The translations under genes were made by a program, and so were the position numbers. The notes under the pieces were generated by a model that searched no databases, was not told where the DNA came from, and was given only the letters and a program-made list of their open reading frames with translations. A stretch of DNA of 42,320 nt from a virus. The stretch spans positions 1-42,320 of the IMG/VR virus record IMGVR_UViG_3300031236_000995. One strand, given 5' to 3'. Below are positions 9,909 through 41,040 of the stretch, in pieces (position 1 is the first letter of the stretch; every line of letters starts with the position of its first letter).

Positions 9909-9972
9909 GACCGGCACCCGAATCTAGGTCACAGCGCCCCGCGAGGGGCCATCCTCGCAGCCTCACGGGCCC

Positions 9973-10013
9973 ATGCTCGCGCGCTGGCAAGAACCGCGTG
10001 TGGGGGAATCCCC
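9973..10013 (-). promoter_or_regulatory. Late promoter copy 1 (palindrome + -10), lysis unit
   Basis: Minus strand GGGGATTCCCCCAC, palindrome centre at 10008, with hexamer GAGCAT at 9978-9973 starting exactly 30 nt downstream. Predicted +1 at 9966, which is the G of a GTG opening a 24-codon frame (9966-9892); that short frame may be a leader peptide or chance. The palindrome begins 6 bp after the stop codon of the upstream virion gene. Its -10 is the weakest of the four. Confidence 0.55.
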
Positions 10014-10019
10014 AGGCGC

Positions 10020-13000
10020 TTACCGCTGGACGAACCGAGCGTCGACCGCCCGCAGCGCCTCGTCCCGCTGCGCGATGAGCCGATCGACCGCGCGCTGGTT
10101 CTTCGCCGTCTGCGCCGCCTTGATCAGCGGCCCGAACTCGACGCGCACCGCGTGCTCGGCGCGCTTCTTCTCAGCGGGCTCGACGCCGTACGGGAAGCCG
10201 CCCGTGACGTAGGTCGTCGCGCCGCCCAGCGGGTCGTCGGCCACCCGGCCGGCGGCCTCGATCGGCGCCAGGACGTGGCCGGCCGCTTTGCCGGCAATCG
10301 CCGCGGCCTGCTTCCAGCCCGGGTCCTGGGGGTTCGACGCGAACGTGTTCCACGGCGGCAGCGCCGAACGGCCACCGCCCTGCGCGGCTTGGAGCGCGTC
10401 CAGGAGCAACGAGAGCGGTAGGCTGGCGTGGCCGGCGACGTAGTTGACCGGCGCGGCAGCGTCTTCACGAACGCCCTGGAAGTCGCCGTGCGCGACGTCG
10501 ACGGGCAGACGTGCCAGCGCGGCTACCGGCTCGAGCACGCGCTGCGGCAGCGGCACCACGACCCGTCGGAAGTCCCCGTTCTTGCGCCGCCCCAGCGTCG
10601 CGGTGAACGGCCGCGACGGGTCGTCGTACCCCTGCGCCTGGTTGTTGACCTCGATCGCGCGCTCGGGCGCCTCCCACCACTTCGGATCGATGATTCCCTT
10701 GCGCGTCCAGAACGGCACGACCGTCTTCATCCACGGCAAGAAGTAGAACAGCCGGTCGAGGTTCGCTTGGATCTCGCGCGGTGAGATGTCGCCGTACTTC
10801 CCGAGCGTGTTGCGCACGCGGATCGCCGCCGCGTCGTCGCTCATGCCGGCTTTGGTGAACCGGTCGAACAGATCGATCGCGTACCCACGCTCGGCGTTCT
10901 GCCACAGCCACTCGTTCATCGGCTGGTAGCCGAACGACTTGCCGCCGAGCAGCGGGATCTTCACGCCCAACCGCGCCGGGATTTCTGGCGTCGCGCCGAT
11001 GGTCACTGTCGTCGTACCGAGCGTACCGGTGTGCGTCTGGGTGGTCCCGGGTTTCCCGGGGATATTGGCCCGACCGCCGATGCGTTCCGGGATCGTCACG
11101 CCGCGCTCGAGGTTGATCGCGGCGCGCGCGACCGGCTTGACGACGCCGGCGAACGGCCCCGCCTTCGCCCCGATCTCGCCCGCGAGCTCACCGGCAGCCG
11201 TCGTCGTGGCGTGCGCGCTCGTCTCGCCCAGCGCTCCGCCGAAGGCGCGATGCGCGTACTCGTTGACCGCACCGGCTTTCACGGCGCGCGCCTCGAGCTC
11301 CGGGGCGAACTTCACCCGGCCGGCCAAGATCGCTGCCATACGCTCCGGCGTCGCCCCAAACTCAGCGCCCTCGGCGAGGTAATGCATCCCCTCGTTGTTG
11401 ATCCCGTGCACCGTGGGCATGAGCACGATCGACGCGCGCGCCAGCCGGTTGAGCACCTGAAACGCGCGCCAGAGCGCGCCGGCCTGCTCCGTCTCGCGCG
11501 GACTCAACCGCTCCGCGCCCTTGAAGAACTGCGCGAACGAATCGTCCAGCGCCATCTCGCGGCCCGACGGCGACGCCAGGCCGAGCGAAGATTCGCGCAC
11601 GTACCCCTCGGGCATCTTGATCGCCGAGGCCTCCGCGCGCTGCTTCACCGTGTCGTAGACCTCGGCGTAATACCGGTCGGCCGTCTTGCGGAACGCCTGC
11701 GCCACCTCGCCGCGGTTGCGCACTTCGTCTGCAGCTCGCCGCTGCGCGTCGAGGGAGACGCGCGCTTTGCGATCGAGCGCGCCGATCCGCTCGAGCGCCG
11801 CCGCTTCGCCGCCCGTTGGCACCGTGGTCCCACGCAGGGCGTCGCCGGCCGCATCGATCGCACCCGAGGCGCCCGACGCCCGAGCTGCCGCCGTGCGCAT
11901 CTGCGCGATCGCGCCGGTGAGCGAGCCGGTCGCCTTGCGCGCACCGCGCTCTGCCCCGGCCGCGACATCGCGGCCCTTGCGCGCCGCCTGCAGGTCGCGA
12001 CGCAGGTTCTCGATCTGATCGGCTCCGGCGTTGCGGTACTTCGGCAGCACCTCGGCCAGCACGCGCTCGCGCGCGTCGTCGGCGAAATCACCGGCACGCG
12101 GCGGTCGCGGGTGCCTGGTGAAGAACTCGCGCACCTCGGAATCGGTGATATCGGGGTGCGTCTTGCGCACGATCGCCGTGACCTGGTCGAGGTTGCCCAG
12201 CGCGCGCCCTGCCTCGTCGGGCTTCGGAATCGCCTTGAGGGGAGCAAGTAACGAGCGCGGCATCCCCGCGAACTCGCCGGCCAGCACGAACTTCTTCTTG
12301 CCGGCGTCCCACACGACGTCGGGGACGATCTTGCCGCCGACCTGCTGCAGCGCATCCCAAAACGGCTGCTGCGCGATAGCGTGCTCTTCGGCCATCCCGC
12401 CGGCCACGTCGCGCACGTTCCCAGGCCGCTGCGCCGCGATCGACGCACGAGCGTCTTGCAACTCGGTCAGCACCGCGTTCGCGGCCTCACGCTGGCTCTG
12501 CACGTTGCTCGCGAGCGCCTCGCGCAGCGTGCCGTTCTCCCGCAAGGCGGTACCGAGCGCGTCGTTGCCGAGCATGAGCGACTGCTTCACCCGGTCGAGC
12601 CCATTGAGCGTCTTGGCGAGGTCCTTCGCGCGCTGCTGGGCGCTTCGAACGACGTCCTGGGTCGCCTTGGTCGCAAGCTTGGCGATCTGCGTCTGTGCAC
12701 CACGCGAGGCCGCAAGACGCGCATCGTACGGCGCCATACTGCGCGCGACGACGCGGCGCGTCCCCAGCTCCGCGGGGTTGATCCCGTGCGCGTCGGCCAG
12801 CGCGGCGATCGCGGGGTCCTGGCGCGCGGCGGCCTTGGCCCGCGCGCTCGCCGTCGCCTCGACGTAGCGCTGCAGGTTCTTCGCCCCCTCCTCACCCCCG
12901 CCGAGCGCGATATCGCCGCCGGGGCGTTCGAGCGCGTAGCGCAGCGGCACGCGGGCGGCGAGCGCCTCGCGCGTCTCGGTACCCGGCTGCGTCCACCACC

Positions 13001-14390
13001 GCTGCTCGCCCGTCGCCTGGTCGGTCAGCGGCACGTGCTCGAGGTCGCGCCGGGACAGCTCGTTTGCGATCGCGCGGTTCGACTCGATCCGGTGCACCTG
13101 GTACTGATGCGCTGGATCGTACTCGGGGTGCAGCTCGTCCTCGTGCCCTAGGATCGTGTCGTTGAGCTTGTGGCCGCCCTTGGTCACCCCGGCGGAGAAC
13201 GCGCCGCGCCGACGCACCAGACGACCCTCTGCGTCGACAGCGTTGACCTCACCGCGTGCGAGCGGATCGCCCTCGGACTGCGCGCGTTCGTCGTAAACCG
13301 GCCGGCCGCGCTCGCGCATCGGGTAGAACGTCCCCGAATCGTAGAGCTCGCCGCGATCCTCGCTGCGGATCTGGAGCTGATCCTGCAGCACGTCATCCTT
13401 CTGGAAGTCGGCGCGCACGCCGGCGCCGCGCGCCTCGAGCGAGAGGCCGCGCCTGGGCTCGGGAACGGACGGGTTGCGCTGCGCGATCCGTGCTCCGTCG
13501 GCGTCGACGTACGAGAGCCGCTGCACCTCGATCTTCTGCGCGCGCGTTAGGCCGCCGAAGCGTGCGGCGGTGTCCTTGATGACCTGCGCCTCGGCGTGCT
13601 GCGGTGCAGCTTGAGCAGCGAGCCCAGCGCCGACGTATCGCGTCCCGCCGCGCTCGCGCAGCGGCGCGTAGCGCGAGACGAACGCGCGGGACGCGGCGAT
13701 CGTCGGGCCAACACCAGGCACCTTCTCCGCGGCTCGCACGACCTTCCCTGCGGTGGCGCCGGCGGCGTGTCCGACCGCACGCGTCGCGCGCCCCAGCGGC
13801 TTGGTCGTCACGTTCTCGGCCGCGCTGGCCGCCGCGTCGACAGCCGGCGATGCAGCGCGCGCCGCGCGCACGCCCTTCGATAGGCCGCCGAGCAGGATGC
13901 CCGCTGTGCGGCCGGCGGCGAGGTTGCCCGGGTTGTACCACTGCCCTGCGAACTCGGCAGCAGCCCGCAAGTACGGGTTCACGGTCTGCGGATCGACGCC
14001 CTCACGCGTCAGCGCTGCGTCTGAAACCGGATCGTACTCGGCGTTGAGCGCCGCCGGTCCCTGGTGCCGCAAGATGTCGACCGCGCGTGCCAGGTGGTTT
14101 CCGGTCGGGTGGTCCGCCCAATTCATCCAACCCGTCAGCGGTCCGCGCGGGACCGATTCCCACGCTGCACCGCCGAGCGAAAGGGGGACGCTCAGCTCTT
14201 CGCCGACCCTGCGCAACAAGCTCGCGCGCCGCGGCTTGCCCTGCGCGTCGCTCGCCACCTCGACGTGGTGAACGCCGTGGGGCGGCTCGAGTGCGGCGTA
14301 CGGGTCCGCTGCATGATGGCTCGGCGTCAGCGCCGCGTACGGGTCGGCGTTCGCGTGCGGGACCAGCGCCGCGTACGGATCGTCGGCCAC
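10020..14390 (-). CDS. Very large internal/ejected virion protein, 1456 aa
   Basis: The N-terminus has three short repeats with the core DPYAAL (near residues 4, 16 and 29), a start I recall from large podophage internal proteins. The body is Ala/Arg-rich and mainly helical, with membrane-like Ala/Gly stretches (about 160-230) and long coiled-coil segments between about 500 and 900. A region around 950-1250 (FYFLPWMKTVVPFWTRKGII) recalls large proteins injected with DNA. No lytic-enzyme motif was recognised. Being the largest product and next to two other low-complexity virion genes, it is probably packed in the head and ejected on infection. Confidence 0.75.
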   Translation of the reverse strand: MADDPYAALVPHANADPYAALTPSHHAADPYAALEPPHGVHHVEVASDAQGKPRRASLLRRVGEELSVPLSLGGAAWESVPRGPLTGWMNWADHPTGNHLARAVDILRHQGPAALNAEYDPVSDAALTREGVDPQTVNPYLRAAAEFAGQWYNPGNLAAGRTAGILLGGLSKGVRAARAASPAVDAAASAAENVTTKPLGRATRAVGHAAGATAGKVVRAAEKVPGVGPTIAASRAFVSRYAPLRERGGTRYVGAGLAAQAAPQHAEAQVIKDTAARFGGLTRAQKIEVQRLSYVDADGARIAQRNPSVPEPRRGLSLEARGAGVRADFQKDDVLQDQLQIRSEDRGELYDSGTFYPMRERGRPVYDERAQSEGDPLARGEVNAVDAEGRLVRRRGAFSAGVTKGGHKLNDTILGHEDELHPEYDPAHQYQVHRIESNRAIANELSRRDLEHVPLTDQATGEQRWWTQPGTETREALAARVPLRYALERPGGDIALGGGEEGAKNLQRYVEATASARAKAAARQDPAIAALADAHGINPAELGTRRVVARSMAPYDARLAASRGAQTQIAKLATKATQDVVRSAQQRAKDLAKTLNGLDRVKQSLMLGNDALGTALRENGTLREALASNVQSQREAANAVLTELQDARASIAAQRPGNVRDVAGGMAEEHAIAQQPFWDALQQVGGKIVPDVVWDAGKKKFVLAGEFAGMPRSLLAPLKAIPKPDEAGRALGNLDQVTAIVRKTHPDITDSEVREFFTRHPRPPRAGDFADDARERVLAEVLPKYRNAGADQIENLRRDLQAARKGRDVAAGAERGARKATGSLTGAIAQMRTAAARASGASGAIDAAGDALRGTTVPTGGEAAALERIGALDRKARVSLDAQRRAADEVRNRGEVAQAFRKTADRYYAEVYDTVKQRAEASAIKMPEGYVRESSLGLASPSGREMALDDSFAQFFKGAERLSPRETEQAGALWRAFQVLNRLARASIVLMPTVHGINNEGMHYLAEGAEFGATPERMAAILAGRVKFAPELEARAVKAGAVNEYAHRAFGGALGETSAHATTTAAGELAGEIGAKAGPFAGVVKPVARAAINLERGVTIPERIGGRANIPGKPGTTQTHTGTLGTTTVTIGATPEIPARLGVKIPLLGGKSFGYQPMNEWLWQNAERGYAIDLFDRFTKAGMSDDAAAIRVRNTLGKYGDISPREIQANLDRLFYFLPWMKTVVPFWTRKGIIDPKWWEAPERAIEVNNQAQGYDDPSRPFTATLGRRKNGDFRRVVVPLPQRVLEPVAALARLPVDVAHGDFQGVREDAAAPVNYVAGHASLPLSLLLDALQAAQGGGRSALPPWNTFASNPQDPGWKQAAAIAGKAAGHVLAPIEAAGRVADDPLGGATTYVTGGFPYGVEPAEKKRAEHAVRVEFGPLIKAAQTAKNQRAVDRLIAQRDEALRAVDARFVQR

Positions 14391-14393
14391 GGG

Positions 14394-15599
14394 CTACTGC
14401 CCCGGCAGCAAGTACGGGCTGATGCCGCTGATCGCAGGCTGGCGCGGAACCGGCAGCGGCGGCAGCGTGCGGCGCACCGGCGCGGCGGCGGATGTGTCGC
14501 CGACCGATGCGGCGTTCGTCGCGTATGCTGCGTCGCCGATGCGCTGGCGCAAGAGCGCGCGCACCTTCACCGGATCGGCGCCGTTCTTGATCGCCGCCTG
14601 CGCACGCTGCACCTCGCTTGTGACCTGCGCCGGCTGAGCACCCGCGCCGCCACCACCACCACCACCGCTAGCGTTCCCACCGCCGCGGAGCAGGCTGCGC
14701 AGGTAGGTCTGCGCGGCCGGCGTCAACTCGCCGTTGGGCCCGATGAGGCTCCCGCCGCCCTGCGGAACGTTGACCGTGATCGACGGCGAGGAAGGCATGA
14801 TGAGCTGCGGCTGAACCGCGCCCGCCGCCGCGCTGGGATCGAGCAACGCGTTGCGCGCGCTGGTCTGCTGGCGGTACGTCTGCGAGTCCTGGTTGAACTG
14901 ATCGATCGCGGTTTTCGTCGCCGCTTCGTAATTCATCCCCTGGAGGTGATACGCCGCCGTGAGCTGCGCGAGCCCGACGCGCACGTTGCCTTGGTAGTGC
15001 GCGAGCTCCGTGCGGTTATTAGCTTCGACCGTGGCGCGCGCCAGCGACGCCGCGTCGTGGCCGGCCGCGATCTGACGCGCACGCGCTGGCAAGTCGCGCG
15101 CCGCCGCCGCCTGCGCCTCGTAGAGGCCGACGTGCGCCTTCGCCTCTGGCAGTCTCCCCTGGGTGTTCAGCGTTGCCGTCGACTCGCGTTGCGTGCCCAG
15201 CGCGATCCCGTCCATCTCGTGCTGCGTCGCCGTGGCCGTCTCGGAGTCACCGGCCTGGAGCGCCGCGTTCTGACGTTTCTGCAAGTACGAAATCTTGTCG
15301 CTATCGGGCATCCGCGCCCAGCCCGCCGGGAGCTGCAGCTTCGAGCGGAACGCCTTGTTGGCCGCGTCCTGAGCGTTCGCCGCTGACGTGTCGGCCGTGG
15401 TCCTCCCGGCCGCAGCAGCGCGCGCCGCGTTCTCGGCCGCGAGCTGCTGCCGACGCAGGTCTTCGTCGACGTCGAACTCGCGCCGGTACTCGGCGTCCTG
15501 CGACTGCTCTTCCGCGCGCTTCTGGCGGTTCTGATTGCGCTGTGCGACACCGGTCGCTGCGCCAGCCAGCGCCGCGCCGAGCGCGCCCCATCCAGCCAT
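14394..15599 (-). CDS. Internal virion protein, 401 aa, Ala/Gln-rich
   Basis: Starts MAGWGALGAALAGAATGVAQ, a glycine/alanine-rich hydrophobic leader, followed by a charged coiled coil (RRQQLAAENAARAAAAG), Gln/Asn-rich helices and a glycine run (ASGGGGGGGAG) before a Pro-rich end SGISPYLLPGQ. This composition and order (small hydrophobic head, coiled coil, low-complexity linker) is typical of podophage internal core proteins. Gap of 3 bp to the next gene. No enzymatic motif seen. Confidence 0.7.
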   Translation of the reverse strand: MAGWGALGAALAGAATGVAQRNQNRQKRAEEQSQDAEYRREFDVDEDLRRQQLAAENAARAAAAGRTTADTSAANAQDAANKAFRSKLQLPAGWARMPDSDKISYLQKRQNAALQAGDSETATATQHEMDGIALGTQRESTATLNTQGRLPEAKAHVGLYEAQAAAARDLPARARQIAAGHDAASLARATVEANNRTELAHYQGNVRVGLAQLTAAYHLQGMNYEAATKTAIDQFNQDSQTYRQQTSARNALLDPSAAAGAVQPQLIMPSSPSITVNVPQGGGSLIGPNGELTPAAQTYLRSLLRGGGNASGGGGGGGAGAQPAQVTSEVQRAQAAIKNGADPVKVRALLRQRIGDAAYATNAASVGDTSAAAPVRRTLPPLPVPRQPAISGISPYLLPGQ

Positions 15600-15600
15600 C

Positions 15601-16629
15601 CTAGGCGCCGGCTCCCACGAGCAGCGCGTCGAAGAGCTGGTTATCGTTGTTCTCGGTGTTCTGCTCGCCGGTCAGATACGAGTTCTGCGCGTTGCTCGAG
15701 CCGGTGTTCGCGATCGACCCGACCGCGCTGAGTCCCGAGCCCTCGAGGCCGCCGAGCTCTTGCAGCATCGTGATGTAGTTCTGTTGCGTGTCGCCGACCT
15801 GCTGGCTGTTGTAGCTGTTGAGCGCGCTAGCGTTCAAGGCGTCGTTGCTCGACTGCTCGCCCGTCAGCAGCTCGTTGAGCGTGTTCTCAGCGCTCTGATT
15901 GCCCTGCGCGGTCGAGAAGTTCTCGCCCGTGAGCTGCGAGAGCAACGAGTTGAGGGCGCCCGCGTTCGTCGTCTGCGCGCCGGCGTTCAGGCCGGTGAGC
16001 TGCTGCGTCTGCGAGTTGGCCGCAGCGGCATTGGCTTGGTTCGCCGCGGCGGTTTCCTGCTGGCCCTGCTGGATCTCCGAGAGCTCCCCGGACGCGAGCG
16101 TCGCGCCCTGCTGGGCGGCGAGGTTCTGCAAGCTGTTGCTCGCGGCGCCGGAGTCCAGGATGCCCATCCCCGCAAGGTTTTCGGCCGTCGTTTGGTCTTG
16201 CTGTTGGAACAGCGGCGCGTACGACTGCTCGAGGATTTGCGCGTACTGTGCGTCCGTCGGCGAAGCCGCGACCTGGGCCACAGGGCCCGCCGCCGTGATC
16301 GGCGCGACCTGCGCGACCGTGCCGGCGGCGGAGTTCGGTCCGGCGAGCGCAACGTTCGAGTACGGCGTCGCGGGCGCCACTTGCGCAACGCTGTTCGGCG
16401 AGATGCCGGACGTCGACGGAGCGGTCGACGCAGGCGTGGTCGCTGCCGTCGCTGCCGTCGTCGCCGGCTGTTGCAGCGCCTGCGTCAGGTTCCCAACGAG
16501 CCCCGCGCCCGCGTTACCCGTGGCGGTTGTGCTCGTGCCGTCGCCCACCTGCGCGACCGGCGCTCCCGACTCGATCGGGGCGATACCGAAGGGGTCTTCG
16601 GCCTCCGTCTCCGAGCCATCGTAGTACAT
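15601..16629 (-). CDS. Gln/Asn-rich virion protein with AQV(A) repeats, 342 aa
   Basis: Low-complexity product with repeated PVAQVG, SVAQVAP, TVAQVAP and PVAQVAA pieces in the first third, then a Gln/Asn/Ser/Ala-rich helical body (FQQQDQTTAENLAGMGILDS, LTGLNAGAQTTNAGALNSLL). One Gly-rich C-terminus (ALLVGAGA). No family named. Position between two internal virion genes suggests a structural or ejected protein; Q/N richness suggests an extended assembly. Confidence 0.7.
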   Translation of the reverse strand: MYYDGSETEAEDPFGIAPIESGAPVAQVGDGTSTTATGNAGAGLVGNLTQALQQPATTAATAATTPASTAPSTSGISPNSVAQVAPATPYSNVALAGPNSAAGTVAQVAPITAAGPVAQVAASPTDAQYAQILEQSYAPLFQQQDQTTAENLAGMGILDSGAASNSLQNLAAQQGATLASGELSEIQQGQQETAAANQANAAAANSQTQQLTGLNAGAQTTNAGALNSLLSQLTGENFSTAQGNQSAENTLNELLTGEQSSNDALNASALNSYNSQQVGDTQQNYITMLQELGGLEGSGLSAVGSIANTGSSNAQNSYLTGEQNTENNDNQLFDALLVGAGA

Positions 16630-16638
16630 CGCTGCCGC

Positions 16639-17142
16639 TCAGATCGTCGGCGGTGGCGGTGGTGCGCCGGCTGCGGGCTGGGCAAGGCCGAGCAGCTGCG
16701 CGAGATACGCGGCGTTCGACCCGTTCGGATCCGCGCCGTTGCTGCGCGCGGCGACCGGCGCGCTGCGCCGGGCTGGGGGCGCTCCGATCGGCGGGGCCGC
16801 CGATGCAGGAGCGCCCGACGCGCCGACGCCTAGCGACGGCATCGTCGTCGTCGGCACCGACGCCGCGGTCGGCGCGCCCGCCATCACCGGGCCCAGGTTC
16901 GCATCCTGCAAGGCGGGATCGGGACCGAGCGTCTTCGCCTGGTTGAGATAGTCGGCGATGTCGGACGCCTTCGCCCCTTGCACCTGATCGATCGCGGTCT
17001 GCGTGTTCTGTTCGGACTGCTGGTTGTTGCCGGTGGCCTGGCCGCTGCCGAACAGGCCGTTCAGCGCGTTGCCGATGAACTTCGCGACGATGACGGGGCG
17101 ATTGCGCGCGCCCTCGAGCGCAGCGCGGTCGATGTCGGCCAT
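16639..17142 (-). CDS. Virion-associated small protein, 167 aa
   Basis: ATG 17142 is used, two bases after the upstream stop; the extension to 17199 is Arg-rich shadow. N-terminal helix DIDRAALEGARNRPVIVAKF, a short hydrophobic patch (FIGNALNGLFGSG), Gln-rich centre and a Pro/Ala-rich tail ending PPPPPTI. No recognised family; grouped with the internal virion proteins by location and composition. Confidence 0.6.
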   Translation of the reverse strand: MADIDRAALEGARNRPVIVAKFIGNALNGLFGSGQATGNNQQSEQNTQTAIDQVQGAKASDIADYLNQAKTLGPDPALQDANLGPVMAGAPTAASVPTTTMPSLGVGASGAPASAAPPIGAPPARRSAPVAARSNGADPNGSNAAYLAQLLGLAQPAAGAPPPPPTI

Positions 17143-17144
17143 GC

Positions 17145-17591
17145 TCACCGCTCGCCTCCGATCGCGTACGTCACGCGCTCGGCGACCATACCGAGACACG
17201 CCATCACCGCGCGCATCGCCTCGTTGTCGCGGTCGACGGTCGCCACAAGCGGCAAGCCGTACGTTCGCGTGCCCTCGATGAGATAGCGGCCCAGCTCGAT
17301 CACCGCACGGCGCGAGCCGGCGATATGCACGACCTCGCGCACCGTCGCTGAGGTGTGCGGATCGAAGACGTCACGGTACGCGGCGACACCCACGGCGACC
17401 TCACGCTGCCACGCGATCAGCCAGCGGATGTTCGCGACCTCGTCGTGATCCGCGGTGCGCGGCGTCCCCCGCTGGCCCAGCGCCGCGATCTGCGGCGCGA
17501 GCGTCGGCAAGAGCCCCGCGATGTGCAGCGCGTCGATCAAGACCGCCGGGACTTCTTCGATGCCGCGATGCCGAGCGCAGTCAGCCACCAT
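17145..17591 (-). CDS. GNAT-like acetyltransferase of the virion cluster, 148 aa
   Basis: Starts at ATG 17591, predicted to be the first transcribed base (leaderless). The second half has the end of a GNAT fold: a strand VVHIAG, a helix RRAVIELGRYLIEG, then YGLPLVATVDRDNEAMRAVM and LGMVAERVTYAIGG, where the DN-x2-M-R part is typical of the GNAT region after the acetyl-CoA site. Similar small GNAT-like proteins lie among podophage head and tail genes. The substrate is unknown, and the protein may be structural rather than active. Confidence 0.7.
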   Translation of the reverse strand: MVADCARHRGIEEVPAVLIDALHIAGLLPTLAPQIAALGQRGTPRTADHDEVANIRWLIAWQREVAVGVAAYRDVFDPHTSATVREVVHIAGSRRAVIELGRYLIEGTRTYGLPLVATVDRDNEAMRAVMACLGMVAERVTYAIGGER

Positions 17592-17597
17592 GCGCCC

Positions 17598-17638
17598 ACC
17601 CTACGGAGCGCAAGCGCCCCGGAAGTGGGGGAATCCCC
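17598..17638 (-). promoter_or_regulatory. Late promoter copy 2 (palindrome + TAGGGT)
   Basis: GGGGATTCCCCCAC on the minus strand, centre 17633; hexamer TAGGGT at 17603-17598, again 30 nt from the centre; then 6 bp to ATG 17591, the predicted +1. No -35 hexamer occupies the normal position, so the palindrome at -42 may replace it. A hairpin GGGGCG-CTTG-CGCTCC lies between palindrome and -10. On the plus strand the flank CAGGCGCT after the palindrome is shared with copy 1. Confidence 0.7.
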
Positions 17639-17644
17639 CAGGCG

Positions 17645-22921: not shown

Positions 22922-22924
22922 GGC

Positions 22925-23537: not shown

Positions 23538-23539
23538 GG

Positions 23540-24280
23540 TTACTTCACCTTGCTGGCAGGAACCGCGATCTTCTCGGTCGGCTCGGCCGCTACGGCGGGC
23601 GCACCCGCAGCGCTCGCCGCGGGCACCTTGAGCCCAGCGATGAAGCCTTGGAGCTGGCCGCTCAGCGCCGACACCTCGCGACGCATCTCAGCCATCGTCG
23701 CGGCGTGCGAGGCGTCCTTCTCGGCGAGCTTCTCTTCGTACTCGGCGCGCACGTCCTCGGCCGACTCGGCCTGCGCGAACGTGACCGTGTCGAACTCGCC
23801 GATCCGGTAGAGCTCGTGCAGGCAGATCGGCGCCATCTCGGTGCCGTCCGACTCGATCACCGTGACGGTGATGTCAGGAAAGCGGTGCGGCCCCGTCGGG
23901 GTCATATCGCCGTCCTTGCCGCCCACGCGCGGATAGTCGTACCGGTCGAGCACGCGCTTCTTCTCGACGCGCCAGAACTTCTGGAGCGCCTCGCGCTTGC
24001 GCTCGTCGGTCGTGTTCGCGTACCGCTCGGGCGTGGTGAACGGCCCGAACCACACTTCGACCTTCGCGAGCAGATCGACGCAGCTCTCGCCCGGCTTGAG
24101 CGTGACGTTCGAGCGAACGCCGGTGCCCTTGCCGGGATGCCACCGCAACTCGATCGGCGCGGTGGCCGTCTTCGCGAGGGTGACGCGGCACAGCCGCGGG
24201 GACTCGTTGACCTCACCGGGCGTCGCGGGCTCGCGATCGAGCCCTTCGAGCGCGGAGAGGTCGATCGCCGGGGCGGCCAT
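23540..24280 (-). CDS. Virion-associated protein, 246 aa, unknown
   Basis: ATG 24280 is preferred over an Arg-rich extension to 24388. The first 150 residues look like a folded beta-rich domain (ESPRLCRVTLAKTATAPIEL, GTGVRSNVTLKPGESCVDLL, VEVWFGPFTTPERYANTTDE), followed by a coiled coil (VRAEYEEKLAEKDASHAATM) and a low-complexity Ala/Pro tail. Possibly a minor capsid or completion protein, from location only. Confidence 0.65.
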   Translation of the reverse strand: MAAPAIDLSALEGLDREPATPGEVNESPRLCRVTLAKTATAPIELRWHPGKGTGVRSNVTLKPGESCVDLLAKVEVWFGPFTTPERYANTTDERKREALQKFWRVEKKRVLDRYDYPRVGGKDGDMTPTGPHRFPDITVTVIESDGTEMAPICLHELYRIGEFDTVTFAQAESAEDVRAEYEEKLAEKDASHAATMAEMRREVSALSGQLQGFIAGLKVPAASAAGAPAVAAEPTEKIAVPASKVK

Positions 24281-24281
24281 C

Positions 24282-25247
24282 CTAGACGACCTGCGCCGGG
24301 ATCGAGCCCTTGTAGCCCGTACCGTTGGCGAAGTTACCGCTCGCGGTCGACACCGACCCGCCGACCGCGGCCGACGTGTGGGTCGCACCGTTCATCGCCG
24401 AGCCCGAGGTCGTGAACGAGAACTGCGAGACGACCACGGTCGTGCCGTTGTACGTGCCCGAGTAGTTCACCGTGAACGTTCCGCCCTGCACCACGGTGTG
24501 CGTGATGACGCCGGCGACGTTCGAGGCGATGTAGTACAGCGAGTAGATTGCGTCCGCGTTGCACGCGGCGACCACCGCTGCGGCCGCGGTCGTGACCGAG
24601 ACGGCCTGCGCCGCGGTCAGCGTCGTGGCGACCGAACGCGTCTGCGCGACGCCCGGGTTCGCGGTGACGTACGGGATCTGGACCGTGACGGTGATGACGT
24701 CGTTCAGCGCCGGGGCGCCGGTGATCGTGTCGGTGCAGCTCGCCTGGACGAGCGCCGCGGCCGTCAAGCTCGAGCACAGGCCCGAGGCCGGCAGCATCGC
24801 GACCGCCGTCGTGCCAAGGCCAGCGACCGGGGTGGTCGTGCCCATGCCGTACCCGGAGGTGCCGCGCGAGGGGATGATCGGCGTCTCGTTGGTGATCGTC
24901 GCCGCGCCCGTGCCGCTCTGGTCGATCAAGAGCGCCGGGTGATAGCCCTGCGTGATGACGTCGACGTTGAACGTGCCGCGGGCGTTCGTGAGCGGCGCGG
25001 TGTACCCGAACGCGGGACCGAAGCCGCCCCACATATCGGACACGACACCGATCTGCAACTGCTGCGTCGCCGCAGTCGTCGCCGGGATGACCATGTTCTC
25101 GTCGACCCAGACCTGCTGGTCGAGCGAAGCGAACTTCACGATCAAGCCGATCGGATACGCAACACCCGGGAGCGGGCGGTACGAGTTCTCCGACCGATTG
25201 TAGCCGAGGTTCTGTTTGGTGGCGTCGGTAGTCTGCTGAACGGCCAC
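24282..25247 (-). CDS. Capsid decoration or head-fibre-like protein, 321 aa
   Basis: GTG 25247, one base after the next unit. N-terminal domain (SYRPLPGVAYPIGLIVKFAS, VDENMVIPATTAATQQLQIG, YTAPLTNARGTFNVDVITQG) resembles small head-decoration domains; the C-terminal half is Thr/Val/Ala-rich with an inserted repeat domain (TITGAPALNDVITVTVQIPY, LTAAQAVSVTTAAAAVVAAC) similar in style to the adaptor's insertion. Directly follows the coat-protein unit, which supports a capsid surface role. No catalytic motif. Confidence 0.65.
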   Translation of the reverse strand: MAVQQTTDATKQNLGYNRSENSYRPLPGVAYPIGLIVKFASLDQQVWVDENMVIPATTAATQQLQIGVVSDMWGGFGPAFGYTAPLTNARGTFNVDVITQGYHPALLIDQSGTGAATITNETPIIPSRGTSGYGMGTTTPVAGLGTTAVAMLPASGLCSSLTAAALVQASCTDTITGAPALNDVITVTVQIPYVTANPGVAQTRSVATTLTAAQAVSVTTAAAAVVAACNADAIYSLYYIASNVAGVITHTVVQGGTFTVNYSGTYNGTTVVVSQFSFTTSGSAMNGATHTSAAVGGSVSTASGNFANGTGYKGSIPAQVV

Positions 25248-25248
25248 G

Positions 25249-25440
25249 TTACTTTACCTTGCCTTCGGTCGCGCGACTCTTCGTGCCGCCCTTGTTGATG
25301 TGCAGCGAGTTGTGCGCCGGCCAGCCCCCGTTTTCGTAGCTGGCCGGCTGCGCGAGCGATTTTGCAGCGGTGACGATGTCGCCGACTTTGGCGTTCACCG
25401 CGCTGTTGATCTTCTGGCTGCTGTTGCCTTTGGAAGCCAC
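25249..25440 (-). CDS. Small phage protein next to the coat gene, 63 aa
   Basis: GTG 25440, between the coat and decoration genes with 1 to 10 bp gaps. Polar, Lys/Asn-rich (KINSAVNAKVGDIVTAAKSL then ENGGWPAHNSLHINKGGTKS). Possibly a head-stabilising peptide; no family recognised. Confidence 0.6.
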   Translation of the reverse strand: MASKGNSSQKINSAVNAKVGDIVTAAKSLAQPASYENGGWPAHNSLHINKGGTKSRATEGKVK

Positions 25441-25450
25441 GGTGTTCTCC

Positions 25451-26416
25451 TTAGCCGTTCAGGATGTTCGCGTAGTAGCCGTTTGAGGCGGGCTTGCGGC
25501 ACTCGTAGTTGCCGTAGACGAAGACGTGACCCGTCTCCGTGTCCTGGTTGACGGGCTTCTGGAACCCGTCGAAGTGGAAGTTCACGTCCTTGTGCACCAC
25601 CATGCGGCAGTGATCCAAGTTGACGTAGTACATGTAGCCGGCCGGGCAGTGGCTGTCTTCGAGCACCGGCTTGCCCTGGAACGCGATGTTGTCGAAGCCC
25701 ATCGACGCGAGCGTCGAGTCGACGAAGCGTTCGTTGGGGGTGAGCGTCGCCCAGTACAGCGCGTACGAATTCTTCGTGGTGACGATCGCGTGGATCGTCT
25801 CCTCGTCGGTCTTCGTCTGCATATAGAGCGTCATCATCGACGCGGTCGAGAGCGTGGTTGGCGTGCCCGGGTTGAAGACCTGGGCCTGCCACCACGGGTT
25901 CGCCAGACGATCGATGCCCAGGTACACCTGGAAGCCCGACGCGTTGTTGACGCCGGCGGCGAAGCCGTCCCAGTCCTTGCCGCTGTTGGTCGTGCCGTTG
26001 GCGAAGACCTGAGCGGCCATCTTGTTGTAGAGGGCCAGGTACGCGGACTGGATCTTGTTCTTGACGAGGTCGAGCTGCTTGCGCTTGCCCGAGACGCGCG
26101 CCTTGTCGATCCCGTTGATGGTGACCGACACCTGCGCCTGCTTCCAGGGCAGCTCGTACGAGCTGAACTCTTCCTGCGCGTCGCTGGGCAGCACGTCGGC
26201 GCCCGAGTACGTCACCGCCGTGTCGTTGATCGCGACCAGGATCGGCTGCGAGATGATCGAGCCGCCGTCCTCGAGCACGATGCGCTTCTTGTGGCGCAGG
26301 AACCCGAGCCACGTGGCCGAGCCGTACTGGCCCGGGTCGATGATCGACGTGCGCAGGTTGCGCTCGACGAAGGCGTTGATTTCGCTAGTGCTGACGAACG
26401 GGATCCCAGTTGCCAC
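25451..26416 (-). CDS. Major capsid (coat) protein, 321 aa
   Basis: Recognised from coat-protein features: an N-arm (INAFVERNLRTSIIDPGQYG), GGSIISQPILVAINDTAVTY, the E-loop-like YELPWKQAQVSVTINGIDKA, the long helix LVKNKIQSAYLALYNKMAAQ, the FNPGTPTTLSTASMMTLYMQ segment, and the late P-domain pieces TLTPNERFVDSTLASMGFDN, FQGKPVLEDSHCPAG and MYYVNLDHCRMVV. This matches phage coat proteins with the HK97 fold. It follows the scaffold gene as expected. Start codon is GTG at 26416. Confidence 0.85.
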   Translation of the reverse strand: MATGIPFVSTSEINAFVERNLRTSIIDPGQYGSATWLGFLRHKKRIVLEDGGSIISQPILVAINDTAVTYSGADVLPSDAQEEFSSYELPWKQAQVSVTINGIDKARVSGKRKQLDLVKNKIQSAYLALYNKMAAQVFANGTTNSGKDWDGFAAGVNNASGFQVYLGIDRLANPWWQAQVFNPGTPTTLSTASMMTLYMQTKTDEETIHAIVTTKNSYALYWATLTPNERFVDSTLASMGFDNIAFQGKPVLEDSHCPAGYMYYVNLDHCRMVVHKDVNFHFDGFQKPVNQDTETGHVFVYGNYECRKPASNGYYANILNG

Positions 26417-26429
26417 GGGGCTTTACTCC

Positions 26430-27569
26430 TTACTTGAAACCGGCCGCGACCGCGCCGCCCGACATCCACGCGTCGACTGGGTCGACGTTGGGATCAGGGC
26501 GTGAGGGCGCCGGTCGCATGCTGGTGGGTGAAGCTCCCGGGCTCGTCAGGAGCGCGGGAACGGGCGCGGCAGTCGGAGCCGCGGTGCTGGCGCCGCTCGC
26601 AGCGGCAGCGTTCGCTTGGGCCTGGACGGCCTCGAGGATGTCCTTCATTCGCGCGACGGCGTCGGGCAGGCCGAGCTTCGGGTCGCTCTTGGCGAGATTG
26701 CTCGCGAACAGAGCGACCTGCTGAAGCAGCATCCGATTCGTCGCGAGGACCGGATAGGTCGTCTGTGCGTCGGTGAGCTCGCGGTTGAACCGGTCGCGCG
26801 CATCGGTCGCGTCGCGATCGCGCTTCCACGCTTGCAACTCGGTGATCGTCTGTCGCGTCTGCGGATCGAGCTGCGCGGCGGGAGGCTGCGTCGGCTGAGC
26901 CGGCGGCGTCGGTGCGGCGGCGCCGTTCTCGTCGTCGTAGAACTTGAGGCACTTGCCGAGGTACTCGGCACGCGCCGGATCGGCCAAGTACGCGTCGACG
27001 AACGCGGCCGTCTGCGGCTCGCTCTTGAGCCGCTGGAGGATCGGCGTGAGCAATCGCGCGGCGACGTCCGGCGCAAGGCCGATCGCGTCGCGGTACGCCT
27101 TCGTCTCGTTCTGGAACGCGATGCGCTGTTGCAGGCCGGCGACGACCTGCTCGCGCGTCCACTCGACGCCCTCAGCGAGCGCGAACTTCTCGGTCGGCTC
27201 GAACGTCTTTGGCGCCGGCGTTGCCGCAGCGGCGGCCGCGGCGGTTGCGTCCGGTGTCGCCGCGTCGGCGGCAGCCGGAGCGGCCGTCGACGCGGTGCCT
27301 GGCGCGGCACTCGCGCTCGCCGGCGTGACGGTCGATCCCGAGGGAGCCGCGTCGGTCGTACTCGCAGCGGTCGACTCGTCCGTCTCCGGATGCTCGGCGA
27401 TCCAGGCAGCGACGTCGTCGCCGCCGCCCAAAGCGAGATCTTCGGGAGTACGAGTCGCAGTCGAAGGAGCGTCCGCTGTTGCGGCCGCTGCGGTGGAAGG
27501 AGCGCTCGCGGGCGCAGCCGGTTGCGGCGCGCCGTTCAGACCGAGCGGTTTCAAATCTTTTTCAGGCAT
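26430..27569 (-). CDS. Scaffolding protein, 379 aa
   Basis: Directly upstream of the coat gene. An Ala/Thr/Pro-rich N-terminal half (about 20-125) is followed by a helical, charged C-terminal half (EGVEWTREQVVAGLQQRIAF, LLTPILQRLKSEPQTAAFVD, LDPQTRQTITELQAWKRDRD, DAVARMKDILEAVQAQANAA). A disordered head plus a helical coat-binding end fits scaffolding proteins of this phage type. It should guide coat assembly and then leave the procapsid. Start ATG 27569. Confidence 0.8.
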   Translation of the reverse strand: MPEKDLKPLGLNGAPQPAAPASAPSTAAAATADAPSTATRTPEDLALGGGDDVAAWIAEHPETDESTAASTTDAAPSGSTVTPASASAAPGTASTAAPAAADAATPDATAAAAAAATPAPKTFEPTEKFALAEGVEWTREQVVAGLQQRIAFQNETKAYRDAIGLAPDVAARLLTPILQRLKSEPQTAAFVDAYLADPARAEYLGKCLKFYDDENGAAAPTPPAQPTQPPAAQLDPQTRQTITELQAWKRDRDATDARDRFNRELTDAQTTYPVLATNRMLLQQVALFASNLAKSDPKLGLPDAVARMKDILEAVQAQANAAAASGASTAAPTAAPVPALLTSPGASPTSMRPAPSRPDPNVDPVDAWMSGGAVAAGFK

Positions 27570-27635
27570 GAGCCTTTTGCACGTAGCAGCGAGACGCGGA
27601 AGCGGATCGAATCCGCCCCCGCGCTCTGGCTGCTG

Positions 27636-27803
27636 CTAGCGGCGCGCTCGCCGGGTCGCCTTGCGGCTGACCTTGCGATGCCCGGCGCGCTCCGTCTTCC
27701 GAGATGCCTTGCGGCCGGGATGACGGAGCCCACGTCGCAGGCCGCGATTGCCCTTTTTCGAGCCGACCTCGTGGGCCAGCTTGCGCCTTTTGCGATGCTT
27801 CAC
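27636..27803 (-). CDS. Very basic 55-aa protein
   Basis: GTG 27803 with AAGGAGGA upstream. Nearly half of the 55 residues are Arg, Lys or His (KHRKRRKLAHEVGSKKGNRG ... SRKATRRARR). Such peptides often bind DNA or RNA or coat the inside of capsids; this is an inference from charge alone. First gene after the late promoter near 27.9 kb, with about 50 nt of leader. Between it and the scaffold start lies a small hairpin (GCGGAT-CGA-ATCCGC, 27602-27616). Confidence 0.6.
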   Translation of the reverse strand: MKHRKRRKLAHEVGSKKGNRGLRRGLRHPGRKASRKTERAGHRKVSRKATRRARR

Positions 27804-27859
27804 GTGCGTTTCGATCCTCCTTCCTGTGTAGTCCAGAGCCCGAGGGCCCCAGCGACCTC

Positions 27860-27900
27860 ACAGTAGGAGCGACGACCAAATCGCCCGTGGGGGAATCCCC
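27860..27900 (-). promoter_or_regulatory. Late promoter copy 3 (palindrome + TACTGT), coat unit
   Basis: Minus strand GGGGATTCCCCCAC, centre 27895; hexamer TACTGT at 27865-27860, 30 nt from the centre; predicted +1 at 27853. It begins about 10 bp downstream of the intrinsic terminator, so it restarts transcription for the scaffold and coat genes. Confidence 0.65.
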
Positions 27901-27907
27901 ACACCGG

Positions 27908-27947
27908 CGGAGCAAACGAAAACGCCCCGCGTTTCCACGAGGCGTTT
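27908..27947 (-). terminator. Intrinsic terminator on the minus strand
   Basis: AAACGCC (plus 27920-27926) pairs with GGCGTTT (27941-27947), extended inward by about three pairs. On the minus strand the stem is followed by TTTTCGTTT, a T-rich tail. It closes the stretch transcribed from the promoter at 28131-28160. Confidence 0.75.
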
Positions 27948-28124
27948 CCTGATCGGCGGGCGCACGTCGCCGCCGCATTTCGCCGATCGCGCAGGTCGGG
28001 CCGATCTTTCGCCGGTTACCACCTACCCGCCGAAGCGGCGCCCTGTCACGGGCGGAGTCGTTGAGGCGTCCCTCTCGTCACTCGGTGAAGCTGATGCGCC
28101 CCAGCGTTCGGTGCCGATTACTGC
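27908..28124 (-). ncRNA. Candidate structured phage non-coding RNA, about 215 nt
   Basis: A stretch with no plausible gene lies between a strong-looking promoter (TTGACG-N18-TAGGGT, 28131-28160) and an intrinsic terminator. It holds several hairpins: an 8-bp perfect stem GATCGGCG/CGCCGATC (27951-27958 with 27981-27988) with an inner GGCG/CGCC pair; CCGC-UUCG-GCGG with a cUUCGg tetraloop (28027-28038); CGCCC/GGGCG (28039-28043 with 28050-28054); and GAGG/CCUC (28063-28066 with 28071-28074). It matches no riboswitch or RNA family I could recall. It could be a free RNA (packaging or regulatory) or a leader with an attenuator for the coat unit. Confidence 0.5.
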
Positions 28125-28130
28125 GCGAGC

Positions 28131-28160
28131 ACCCTATCACAGCGGCGCGGCGCGCGTCAA
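28131..28160 (-). promoter_or_regulatory. Promoter TTGACG-N18-TAGGGT in front of the candidate RNA
   Basis: Minus strand TTGACG at 28160-28155, 18-bp spacer, TAGGGT at 28136-28131. Both hexamers and the spacer length are identical to the promoter at 40491-40520. It starts just after the stop codon of the 28162 gene, so it cannot serve that gene. Predicted +1 near 28124. Confidence 0.65.
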
Positions 28161-28161
28161 C

Positions 28162-28539
28162 CTACGGCTCAGCGTTGTAGAAGTCGTCGATCCGCTGCCG
28201 CAGCGGCTTGGCGTGCGGCTTCCTGCGGACCGTGGCCTTCTTCGGTGAAGCCATCTGACGCGCCAGCTTTTTGGGCGACGGGCAACTCTTGCACCGAAAC
28301 CCGACGGTCCGATGGCCCTCCTGGACCGGCGCCATCGCGCTGCGGCCCCGCTCTTTGCCGCACGTCACGCACGCCGTCAGCTTCGTCGTGTCCCTGATGA
28401 AGCGCTCAGGGTCGTGCTTGCCGATGTCCTTTTCGACGCGGATGGCTTGGACGATGCGTGATACCTGTACTGCTGCGGCACCGCCGTGAAACAACCTCGT
28501 CGACCGCTTCGCCCAGGGCGTCTTACTCGGGAGCGCCAT
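28162..28539 (-). CDS. Zinc-ribbon phage protein, 125 aa
   Basis: ATG 28539. A basic N-terminus (KTPWAKRSTRLFHGG), then CVTCGKERGRSA and later FRCKSCPSP form a C-x2-C ... C-x2-C zinc ribbon (about 57-86), followed by a very basic tail (KKATVRRKPHAKPLRQRIDD). Probably a nucleic-acid-binding protein of the head region. Last gene of the portal-side unit, ending where the candidate RNA promoter begins. No family assigned. Confidence 0.65.
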   Translation of the reverse strand: MALPSKTPWAKRSTRLFHGGAAAVQVSRIVQAIRVEKDIGKHDPERFIRDTTKLTACVTCGKERGRSAMAPVQEGHRTVGFRCKSCPSPKKLARQMASPKKATVRRKPHAKPLRQRIDDFYNAEP

Positions 28540-28571
28540 GCCGCGATCCTACCACGCGCGCAACGTGCGCG

Positions 28572-28964
28572 CTACGATTCGTCCGCGCCCGGCGGCGGCG
28601 ACGCCGGAGCTGGTGTCGCCGACAGTCCGCCGGCGAGGTCGACGCCTTCGTTCGCACTCGGTGCCGGCGGCGCAACACCGGCCGGCTTACCGCCAGCGAC
28701 GATCGCCTGGATCCACGCGTCGATCTGCGGGCCCATCGCGGGGATGTCGCCCTTGAGCTCGCGCAGCGCCGCGACGGCAGCCGACGCTTTCTCTTTCGCC
28801 GTCGTCGACGTCGACCCGGTCTGCATCGGCCCGACACCGGTCGGCGCGGGCGGCAGGCCCGGCATCTTCGGCGGCGCGCCGAGCTGCGCGCCCGGCGGAG
28901 CCGGCGCCCCACCAGCGGCGGGAGCACCGCCGGCGACCTGATCGAGAAGTCCTAGATACGCCAC
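28572..28964 (-). CDS. Pro/Ala-rich head protein, 130 aa
   Basis: GTG 28964. Long Pro/Ala/Gly-rich N-terminus, one helical segment (TAKEKASAAVAALRELKGDI to GPQIDAWIQAIVAGG, about 54-92), then a Pro/Ala tail. It follows the portal gene by 6 bp. Function unknown; structural role by place. Confidence 0.55.
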   Translation of the reverse strand: MAYLGLLDQVAGGAPAAGGAPAPPGAQLGAPPKMPGLPPAPTGVGPMQTGSTSTTAKEKASAAVAALRELKGDIPAMGPQIDAWIQAIVAGGKPAGVAPPAPSANEGVDLAGGLSATPAPASPPPGADES

Positions 28965-28970
28965 GTTGAT

Positions 28971-31091
28971 CTACCTCGTCGAGCTGAGCGCTGCGCGCGT
29001 TGGGATGTTGGAGATGGGAGGCTGCGGTTTCTTCGCGCTACGCGCGGGCTTGGACGGTGCCGGCCCCGGCTTTTTCTTCGAGACGGCCTTCTGCTGCGCC
29101 GCCATCGCGTCTTGACGCTCCATGCGCGGCAGCTCGGTCTTCCAACCGTCCAGACGGAACTTCTGATGCCACCACCGCCGGTCGACCAGGTGCAGCTTGT
29201 AGAGGTCCATCCAACGATTCCACAACCCAGCCGGCGAGGTCGAGAGCGAGCTGATCGGCACAACGCCGAACTCGACCGGCCCTTGCAGATCGGGGTTGGT
29301 GTACTCGCGGAACTTCACCTCAGCGATGCCAGCCGACGGCACGACCACCGGCTCGTCGCCGTCCGCTCCGCCGAAGACCTGCGGCGGCCGCTCGACTCGC
29401 TCGCGCAGCGGCCGATCGCCGCGATCGTACTGCTGGATCAACTGCACGCGCAGCTTGCCGATGCGCCCGATCCCCGTCTCGAGGTTACGCACCTTGAGCC
29501 GGATCGGCGCCGCGCCGCTCTCCTGCAGTTGGTCGACCATCGCCCACGACGTGTTCGCGCCTGGCGACCCGCCGCGTACGGCCTCTGTGATCCCCGACAC
29601 CTCGCTCATCGCCGTGTTGAGCAAGCCGTACAGCTCGACGAACTGCTGCGGCATCGGCGGCATCTGCAACGGCTGGAGCGAGTCCATCTCTTCCATCGGG
29701 ATGATCGCGCCGGGTTTGTTCTTAATCGACGACGCGTTGACGCCGCCGCCCTTCTTGAGCTTCCACGACGGGTTGCCCGTCTTCTCCAGGATGTCGTACA
29801 CCTGCGAGAGGATACGGTTCGAAGCGATTTGCGAATCTTTGAGCGCGAGCGGTTCGCCTTGTCCCCAAAACGCGCCGACGTCGTAGTCCTTCCACATCGC
29901 AAACGGGAAGCCGTCGGTCTGGAATGGGTTGGGGATGTCGCGCAGCAGCACGCGCGCGCCGGCGATGACGACGAGCCGGCCGTTGGGGTACTTCTCCCGC
30001 CACGCCGGCTCCATGACCGGCACGCGCTTGGGCCGGCGCAGCGGCATGAGGAACAGCGAGCCGTCGATCGGGCTCACCTGGAGCTGGTGGCCGAAGACCT
30101 CCATCTCGTACAGGCCCGTCGTCGGGTCGACGGCTTCGGTCGTCTGCGGCACGCCGTTGACGACCTTCTGCTTCTGGTACGCTTCGAGCGTCTCGTCGCG
30201 CAGCCAGCACTCCATGATCTCGACCGAGTCACCGTCGGCCAGATCGTAGTCCGTGCCCAGCGGCGAGTATTGCGGACCGACGATGTTGCCGTTGACGTTC
30301 GCCGCGCTGATGATCCGCGACGCTTCGTTCGAGTCGCCCTCGCGGATGAAGTCGCGGTCCGTCTCGCTCGAGTCGAGCGTCCGCATCCCCTTGACCTTAT
30401 GAACCACGGCGGCGCGCTCGGGGTAGTTGCGCCGCACCCACCCCATCGTCTGCTCTTCGACGTGGAGGATGAACTCGGCGTCGTCGACGCAGGTCGCTGT
30501 GCGGTTCGAGAAGATTCGATACGGCACGATCGGCGTCGCGATGTGACGCCCGCGGCCGCCATCCGCCTTCGGATCGAACGCGATCTTCATGAACCCGGTG
30601 CCCCACACCAGGCCGTACAGGACGAAGATGCTGATCTTCGCCTGCATATCGTTCTCGTCCCAATCGCGATCGACTAGCTTGCGCAGCAGGTCGGCGGCGT
30701 CTTCTGTCCCAGGGACGAGCGGATCGACGGAGATGCGCGGCTTGTTGTCCGTCATCACCGCTTGCATGAAGGTGATGAAGGCGCGAATCTTGTTGATCGT
30801 GATCTTCGCCCGCCAGGTCGGCCAGCGCGACGGCCAGACGTTTCCGATGAACAGATCCCAGGCGACGTCGAACGTCTCGTACGGCTCGCGCGCTTTGCGC
30901 GCGTCGTCGTAGAGCGCCGAGCAGTAGCGCAGAATCTTGAGCTTGCCCTGCTCCTCTTCGGTCAGCTCCGGGAAGTCGTCAGCGACGTCGTCGTCGCCTT
31001 CAGCGTCCTCGCGCTCTTGCGCGCGCTGCATCGCGTAGACGTCGTGACGAACGAGGTTCGGCTTCGAGTCGCGCTCGAGCGTGATCGCCAC
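28971..31091 (-). CDS. Portal protein, P22-like, 706 aa
   Basis: GTG 31091. Long portal protein with typical pieces: WDLFIGNVWPSRWPTWRAKI, NKIRAFITFMQAVMTDNKPR, LVDRDWDENDMQAKISIFVL, GTGFMKIAFDPKA, IVPYRIFSNRTAT, GFPFAMWKDYDVGAFWGQGE, SQIASNRILSQVYDILEKTG, AIIPMEEMDSLQPLQMPPMP and SEVSGITEAVRGGSPG. It forms the dodecameric channel at the packaging vertex that docks terminase and later the adaptor. The acidic N-terminus and Lys/Pro-rich C-terminus (KKKPGPAPSKPARSAKKPQP) are probably flexible. Second gene of the unit started by the promoter near 31.5 kb. Confidence 0.85.
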   Translation of the reverse strand: MAITLERDSKPNLVRHDVYAMQRAQEREDAEGDDDVADDFPELTEEEQGKLKILRYCSALYDDARKAREPYETFDVAWDLFIGNVWPSRWPTWRAKITINKIRAFITFMQAVMTDNKPRISVDPLVPGTEDAADLLRKLVDRDWDENDMQAKISIFVLYGLVWGTGFMKIAFDPKADGGRGRHIATPIVPYRIFSNRTATCVDDAEFILHVEEQTMGWVRRNYPERAAVVHKVKGMRTLDSSETDRDFIREGDSNEASRIISAANVNGNIVGPQYSPLGTDYDLADGDSVEIMECWLRDETLEAYQKQKVVNGVPQTTEAVDPTTGLYEMEVFGHQLQVSPIDGSLFLMPLRRPKRVPVMEPAWREKYPNGRLVVIAGARVLLRDIPNPFQTDGFPFAMWKDYDVGAFWGQGEPLALKDSQIASNRILSQVYDILEKTGNPSWKLKKGGGVNASSIKNKPGAIIPMEEMDSLQPLQMPPMPQQFVELYGLLNTAMSEVSGITEAVRGGSPGANTSWAMVDQLQESGAAPIRLKVRNLETGIGRIGKLRVQLIQQYDRGDRPLRERVERPPQVFGGADGDEPVVVPSAGIAEVKFREYTNPDLQGPVEFGVVPISSLSTSPAGLWNRWMDLYKLHLVDRRWWHQKFRLDGWKTELPRMERQDAMAAQQKAVSKKKPGPAPSKPARSAKKPQPPISNIPTRAALSSTR

Positions 31092-31094
31092 GAG

Positions 31095-31496
31095 CTACCG
31101 GCCCACCGATCGATACCGGCCGCCCTCGGCGGGCGTCAGCCCTTGGCGGGCGGCTTCCTCGCGCACGCCGCGATTCGAGCCGAGCTCGGCGTTGGTGCGC
31201 GGCCGGTACGCGAGCCGTGGCTTCCCGTCGGCCCGCTCGCCGACGACGGTGTCGATCCCCTTCAGCCCGACGTTGAACTTCGAAGTACCGTCGGCGACGC
31301 GCGCCGGGTCGTTGGAGTCCTCGCCGCCGGCGTCGATCCGGATGTGCTGCCCGTGCCGCGGCCCAAAGTGCTGAGGTGATGGCGTGCCGCAGACGCCGCA
31401 CCGCAGGACGCCGCCGCTCTTGCGGACGTCGGCGAGCAACGCGATGACCTCGTTGACCCCGCAGGTCGGGCAGTTGACGTCGTACAGACCGGGCAC
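31095..31496 (-). CDS. Zinc-ribbon (FmdB-like) phage protein, 133 aa (leaderless start predicted)
   Basis: GTG 31496 is exactly the predicted first transcribed base of late promoter copy 4. N-terminal MPGLYDVNCPTCGVNEVIAL and LRCGVCGTPSP give a C-x2-C ... C-x2-C ribbon like FmdB family regulators, followed by HFGPRHGQHIRIDAGG and a basic end. Its stop lies 3 bp before the portal start. It may help packaging or regulate late genes; unproved. Confidence 0.7.
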   Translation of the reverse strand: MPGLYDVNCPTCGVNEVIALLADVRKSGGVLRCGVCGTPSPQHFGPRHGQHIRIDAGGEDSNDPARVADGTSKFNVGLKGIDTVVGERADGKPRLAYRPRTNAELGSNRGVREEAARQGLTPAEGGRYRSVGR

Positions 31497-31502
31497 GAGC
31501 CT

Positions 31503-31543
31503 ACTCTGGCGGTCCGTAAGATCGCGAATGTGGGGGAATCCCC
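31503..31543 (-). promoter_or_regulatory. Late promoter copy 4 (palindrome + CAGAGT), portal unit
   Basis: Minus strand GGGGATTCCCCCAC, centre 31538; hexamer CAGAGT at 31508-31503, 30 nt from the centre; six bases later comes the GTG at 31496. The palindrome lies about 13 bp after the terminase stop codon. Confidence 0.65.
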
Positions 31544-31556
31544 AAGGGCACGACCG

Positions 31557-41029: not shown

Positions 41030-41040
41030 TGAGCCGCAGG

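Follow-up and report, generated by a model that had tools for sequence, protein, structure and literature searches.

A palindromic element that occurs four times on the minus strand of an uncultured phage genome is probably the operator of a single class of late promoters, which would be activated from about position -42, with the product of 33943-34320 as its candidate reader. The window studied here is the complete record IMGVR_UViG_3300031236_000995, at its full length of 42,320 bases. Beyond this one phage, it is an evenly balanced possibility that the candidate reader represents an undescribed family of late master activators, built of a Cys/His knuckle and a GerE helix-turn-helix (HTH) and encoded beside the terminase, whose recognition helices co-diversify with their operators so as to give each phage a private switch.

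The 14-mer GGGGATTCCCCCAC is present in exactly four copies in the window, all on the minus strand: 10000-10013 (site 1, before presumed lysis genes), 17625-17638 (site 2, before gene 17145-17591), 27887-27900 (site 3, before a gene for a small basic protein and the coat operon) and 31530-31543 (site 4, after the terminase gene). Three of the four copies lengthen to TGGGGATTCCCCCAC, which forms the 14-bp dyad TGGGG-ATTC-CCCCA, and the operator copies at sites 1, 3, and 4 extend over 10000-10014, 27887-27901, and 31530-31544. The plus strand of the window contains no GGGGATTCCCCCAC, a reversed control sequence likewise gave zero matches, and the 14-mer never appeared in 100 dinucleotide-shuffled windows. 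However, when this GC-rich window was shuffled 100 times, two of the shuffles contained some 14-mer or other in four copies, and copy number on its own is therefore only moderately surprising. To this extent chance could account for the repeats, or they could be RNA or packaging elements without a regulatory function, but such explanations are negligible when one considers that all four copies are intergenic (non-coding sequence makes up 8.4% of the late/early gene region in the predicted gene set), that their spacing to a -10 hexamer is fixed, and that independent phages repeat this layout at orthologous places, each with a different sequence.

Exactly 21 nt separate each copy of the 14-mer from a minus-strand hexamer of the form nAnnnT. 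These -10-like hexamers are GAGCAT (9973-9978) after site 1, TAGGGT (17598-17603) after site 2, TACTGT (27860-27865) after site 3, and CAGAGT (31503-31508), 30 nt from the dyad center of site 4. It had been claimed that an nAnnnT hexamer lies a fixed 30 nt from the palindrome center and that none of the four promoters has a -35 hexamer; the first statement was right at 4/4 sites and the second proved correct as well. The predicted +1 lies 42 nt from the palindrome center. In two of the units this +1 coincides with the first base of the start codon (GTG 31496 and ATG 17591), six bases past the hexamer, which is a leaderless-type arrangement. A dyad at a fixed distance from the -10, standing in place of a -35, is the layout of a class II activator promoter, here with respect to a predicted +1.

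The late functions that had been proposed for the four units are plausible to different degrees. A portal role for the unit at the 31.5-kb site and a coat role for that at the 27.9-kb site were both supported, the "internal virion" role of the 17.6-kb unit is putative, and the lysis role of the unit at site 1 is no more than hinted at by a sub-threshold SLT match. Site 4 is separated from the candidate activator gene by the terminase large subunit gene (31557-33422, minus strand; phrog_2, E 7e-16), and the unit after it begins with a gene for a zinc-ribbon-like protein (31095-31496, minus strand) and includes the portal protein gene (28971-31091, minus strand; phrog_156, E 9e-37). The first gene after site 3 encodes a very basic protein of 55 aa (27636-27803, minus strand), and the major capsid protein is encoded at 25451-26416 (minus strand; phrog_9953, E 2e-53). 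In nearly all phages examined, the coat unit opens with a protein of 33-77 aa that is about half Lys/Arg/His (e.g., L009 12216-12353) and that may be a DNA condensation or virion protein. Separately, the terminase match of L010 (1440-4148) comes in two pieces about 1 kb apart, with the break at about query residue 287, and the terminase genes of G003 and G009 have a long span; these oddities possibly reflect an intron- or intein-like insertion. Another observation concerns the non-coding stretch 27905-28160 (minus strand) between the portal and coat units, which has patches (CACGCTGGGGC, CTCCGCCCnTGACAGGGCG, and CGAAAnGCGG) in common with phage G007/L011 (about 12540-12800 in L011). It is a possible small structured RNA with a promoter-like start (TTGACG/TAGGGT); it gave no Rfam match, and the patches were not seen in the other phages.

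The phage is probably temperate, given its serine integrase (6064-7617). The end of the window (40953-42320), with its tRNA-Ile (GAT) and a gene for a formamidopyrimidine-DNA glycosylase, looks like the host flank of a prophage. At the other end, within positions 1-280, a 12-bp unit similar to GGGACGCGACCA when read on the minus strand is repeated head to tail about twenty times, and a RyR-domain phage protein (PF02026, E 6e-10) is encoded at 38381-38797 and is also found in G001 and L095. No near DNA match was found among sequenced phages, where capsid relatives, the Myxococcus phages Mx8 and Mx9 among them, are distant, with at most about 30% identity. Bacterial genomes searched with the terminase yielded no relatives, and those searched with the capsid yielded one match, bin L051. 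The relatives compared below come from IMG/VR, which contains about 20 with roughly 45-75% identity in capsid, portal, or terminase, several of them about 50 kb in length.

The earlier note had proposed that the 14-mer be sought in related phages together with its distance to the -10. The 14-mer was present only in the near-identical contigs L007 and L013, whereas the location of the element, its dyad-like character, and its spacing to the -10 were conserved, with a sequence private to each phage. This became evident when two orthologous places were compared within each phage, that of site 4 (after the terminase) and that of site 3 (between the unit upstream and the small basic gene that precedes the coat operon). 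Of 14 phages, 11 had at both places an element of 15-20 nt that was the phage's own and usually dyad-like, with 15-18 of 18 nt identical between the places; by comparison, one of 182 between-phage pairs reached 15/18 nt and 17 reached 14 (Mann-Whitney p 4e-10). Examples of such shared elements are CCCCCTTTTTGGGGG in G002, CTCCAGGATTCTGGA in G003, CGAGTAAATCTACTCG in G008, CCGTGATTTTACGG in L009, and CCCTCAACTTTCAGAGG in L010. Four near-complete genomes, G001-G004, carry a third copy at the place orthologous to site 2 (17.6 kb), and scanning them revealed no further convincing copies beyond sites 4, 3, and 2. A counterpart of site 1 (10 kb) was not found in the relatives. The elements of G004, G012, and L008 are poor palindromes, those shared in G005, G013, and L088 are only partial, and none was detectable between the sites of G007. 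L088 has a diverged activator and shares only GGACGCTGG, at a similar distance to the hexamer. L095, which was added after the pattern had been defined, carries the activator gene and has at site 4 a perfect dyad, GGCTAAGATTAGCC, with 6-bp arms and with TACGAT starting 29.5 nt from its center. A literal search for the same motif in relatives would have failed, and would have wrongly dismissed the late-promoter finding, because what is conserved is the layout and not the sequence. The proposal of a single late-promoter class served by one protein near -42 appears well supported by this comparison.

Across phages, the distance from dyad center to the start of the nAnnnT hexamer is about 30-32 nt in almost all copies. 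With the start of the hexamer taken as -12, the center would lie at about -42 to -44. In overlapping two-register bins, those at 30 and 31 nt held 21 and 25 of 33 copies and bins 18-28 held 0-5, counts that include dyad centers that are ambiguous (G001, G004, G005, G012, G013, and L008) or were set by hand in several phages, that of G004 having been altered after the data were seen. In a strict set of eight clear phages (19 copies), the bins at 30 and 31 nt held 12 and 13. A spacing longer by one helical turn, at one time considered for site 2 of G002-G004, was dropped, as GAAAAT, GAGAAT, and GAAGAT are found there at the usual distance.

The constancy of this spacing bears on whether the palindromes could be repressor operators that silence the late promoters in the lysogen. 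In favor of this, phage immunity repressors typically have private operators, the phage is, as its integrase suggests, probably temperate, and polymerase can also be blocked by a dyad that overlaps the -35 region. However, a repressor site needs only to overlap the promoter, and here the distance between element and -10 is held within about 1-2 nt across diverged phages. Moreover, these promoters offer no -35 hexamer to be blocked and hence need help to fire. Because of the position of the element and the missing -35, activation is preferred to repression, which we consider unlikely.

The candidate for the cognate activator, a protein that the earlier note left unnamed, is the 125-aa protein encoded at 33943-34320 (minus strand), directly upstream of the terminase. 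It matches the GerE family PF00196 with 29.9 bits, above the curated cut-off of 23.5, and 9 of 12 homologs match the same family at E up to 0.1. An ortholog is present at the equivalent place in every relative that includes this region, two later-added contigs among them. The AF2 model (pLDDT 88) superimposes on GerE (6jqs; Z 12.3, rmsd 1.1, 67 residues aligned) as a four-helix fold with the C-terminal dimer helix, and the family profile matches RhlR (6e-10) in the PDB, with ComA also among the matches. The N-terminus, a helix plus hairpin, has a conserved C...C-x2-C...H set (C5, C35, C38, and H42), which suggests a zinc-binding knuckle; searched alone, it gave no convincing fold match, which does not demonstrate a new fold. 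With 125 aa in all, the protein lacks the N-terminal autoinducer-binding domain of LuxR quorum receptors, and it belongs with the GerE HTH family and not with those receptors.

Alternatively, the element could be the -35 part of a promoter read by a phage sigma-like factor, with the GerE-like protein acting as a sigma domain-4 factor. Over the HTH, 9 of 12 activator homologs matched a PHROG annotated as sigma factor, and sigma-70 region 4 was matched weakly by 4 of 12. Nevertheless, the fold and profile matches cover full GerE/LuxR domains, dimer helix included, the elements are mostly dyads centered near -42, and the 125-aa protein has no sigma region 2. A sigma-like role is thus very unlikely, and the protein is better regarded as a putative dimeric activator.

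In the 33943-34320 protein, the recognition helix (about residues 80-93) is the most variable of the parts compared, and conservation is highest in the dimer helix (residues 94-110). Over 78 phage pairs, operator similarity correlated with similarity of the recognition surface (r 0.27, Mantel p 0.012; partial p 0.024 with the rest of the protein allowed for), a modest effect for a surface picked post hoc, after the alignment had been seen. Among sliding windows along the activator, residues 82-90 gave the highest r, and when sets of nine positions were drawn at random from outside the recognition helix, 1.5% of them did as well as the chosen surface. The pair G005-L010 has the most similar operators (both CCCTCAACTT...) and ranks first in recognition surface as well (TKFTVYR and TKYTVQR).

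A different phage or host protein could also read the sites. The zinc-ribbon protein (31095-31496) comes to mind, as P2 has a zinc-finger late activator, Ogr, that could serve as the model; the zinc-ribbon protein, too, is conserved, and there is a weak correlation between its similarity and that of the operators (r 0.20, p 0.05). But as the first gene in a late unit it cannot start the programme, it has no HTH, and its Cys-rich part is absent from the aligned stretch in several phages. A host protein, for its part, would leave a different element in every phage unexplained. Such readers are very unlikely, and the product of 33943-34320 remains our candidate.

Taken together, we infer the following switch. 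Early transcription would make the GerE-type protein, a dimer of which would bind the palindromic operators (such as TGGGGATTCCCCCA) centered at about -42. There the bound activator, in place of a -35 hexamer, would recruit or isomerise RNA polymerase at the nAnnnT -10, and the late units would be started together by class II-like activation. Within this phage group, operators and recognition helices have diverged and site positions, spacing, and dimer helix have stayed alike; each phage would thus have a late switch of its own. Perhaps the driver of this co-diversification is the avoidance of cross-activation by co-infecting phages or of capture by satellites.

A fifth palindrome, an exact GGGGATTCCCC, lies at 40459-40469 (minus strand) just inside a start codon, at about +20 of a strong sigma-70-like promoter (TTGACG 40520-40515 and TAGGGT 40496-40491). 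This 11-mer occurred 0 times in 100 shuffles, and no counterpart was found in the relatives scanned. It is a possible repression site, through which early genes could be turned off by the late activator.

For most uncultured phages the control of late genes is unknown, and here late promoters and their probable activator were obtained computationally. At least a dozen candidate pairs of activator and operator, alike in scaffold and different in specificity, form a natural series, in which the retargeting of a GerE-type recognition helix to new DNA sequences becomes directly testable. The same series offers candidate pairs of mutually orthogonal promoters and activators.

The general kind of system is known, while the activator family and the private operators under a conserved layout appear to be new; the literature searched, which was mostly outside subscription journals, yielded no description of a phage late activator of the GerE/LuxR type. 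P2 Ogr and P4 Delta are zinc-binding activators of several late promoters that have a dyad and no -35. The Ogr dyads lie further upstream, near -55, and are common to P2-like phages, whereas those described here lie near -42 and are private.

Closer in geometry is phage Mu. As a dimer, Mor (129 aa) contacts two inverted repeats of 5 bp each, which lie in a 16-bp element centered at -43.5 of Pm, a promoter without a -35 (PMC4390567), and C drives the four late promoters lys, I, P, and mom (PMC4461284). As proposed here, a small phage protein acts at promoters that have a -10 and, in the case of Pm, no -35. Unlike Mor and C, the protein proposed here is of GerE/LuxR type with an N-terminal Cys/His knuckle, and within a single group every phage has a different version of its putative operator. 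The Mor family did not appear in the Pfam scans of the activator and its homologs, and the fold matches listed are of GerE type.

The Ltr/RinA proteins, late regulators of Gram-positive phages, resemble the candidate activator in size (about 130 aa) and in their place directly upstream of the packaging genes (PMC13123087). They reportedly do not resemble any known bacterial transcription factor, and direct repeats, four in number, are found in the phi13 promoter (PMC13123087), in contrast to the dyads and the GerE fold found here.

DNA-binding fold and dyad position are both shared with the LuxR/GerE activators (LuxR, RhlR, NarL, ComA, and GerE), and LuxR-type sites are dyads centered at -42.5 (PMC4471428). 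What sets the present protein apart from these activators is that a 50-residue knuckle domain takes the place of an autoinducer or receiver domain, and that it is encoded by a phage, beside the terminase, and linked to structural genes.
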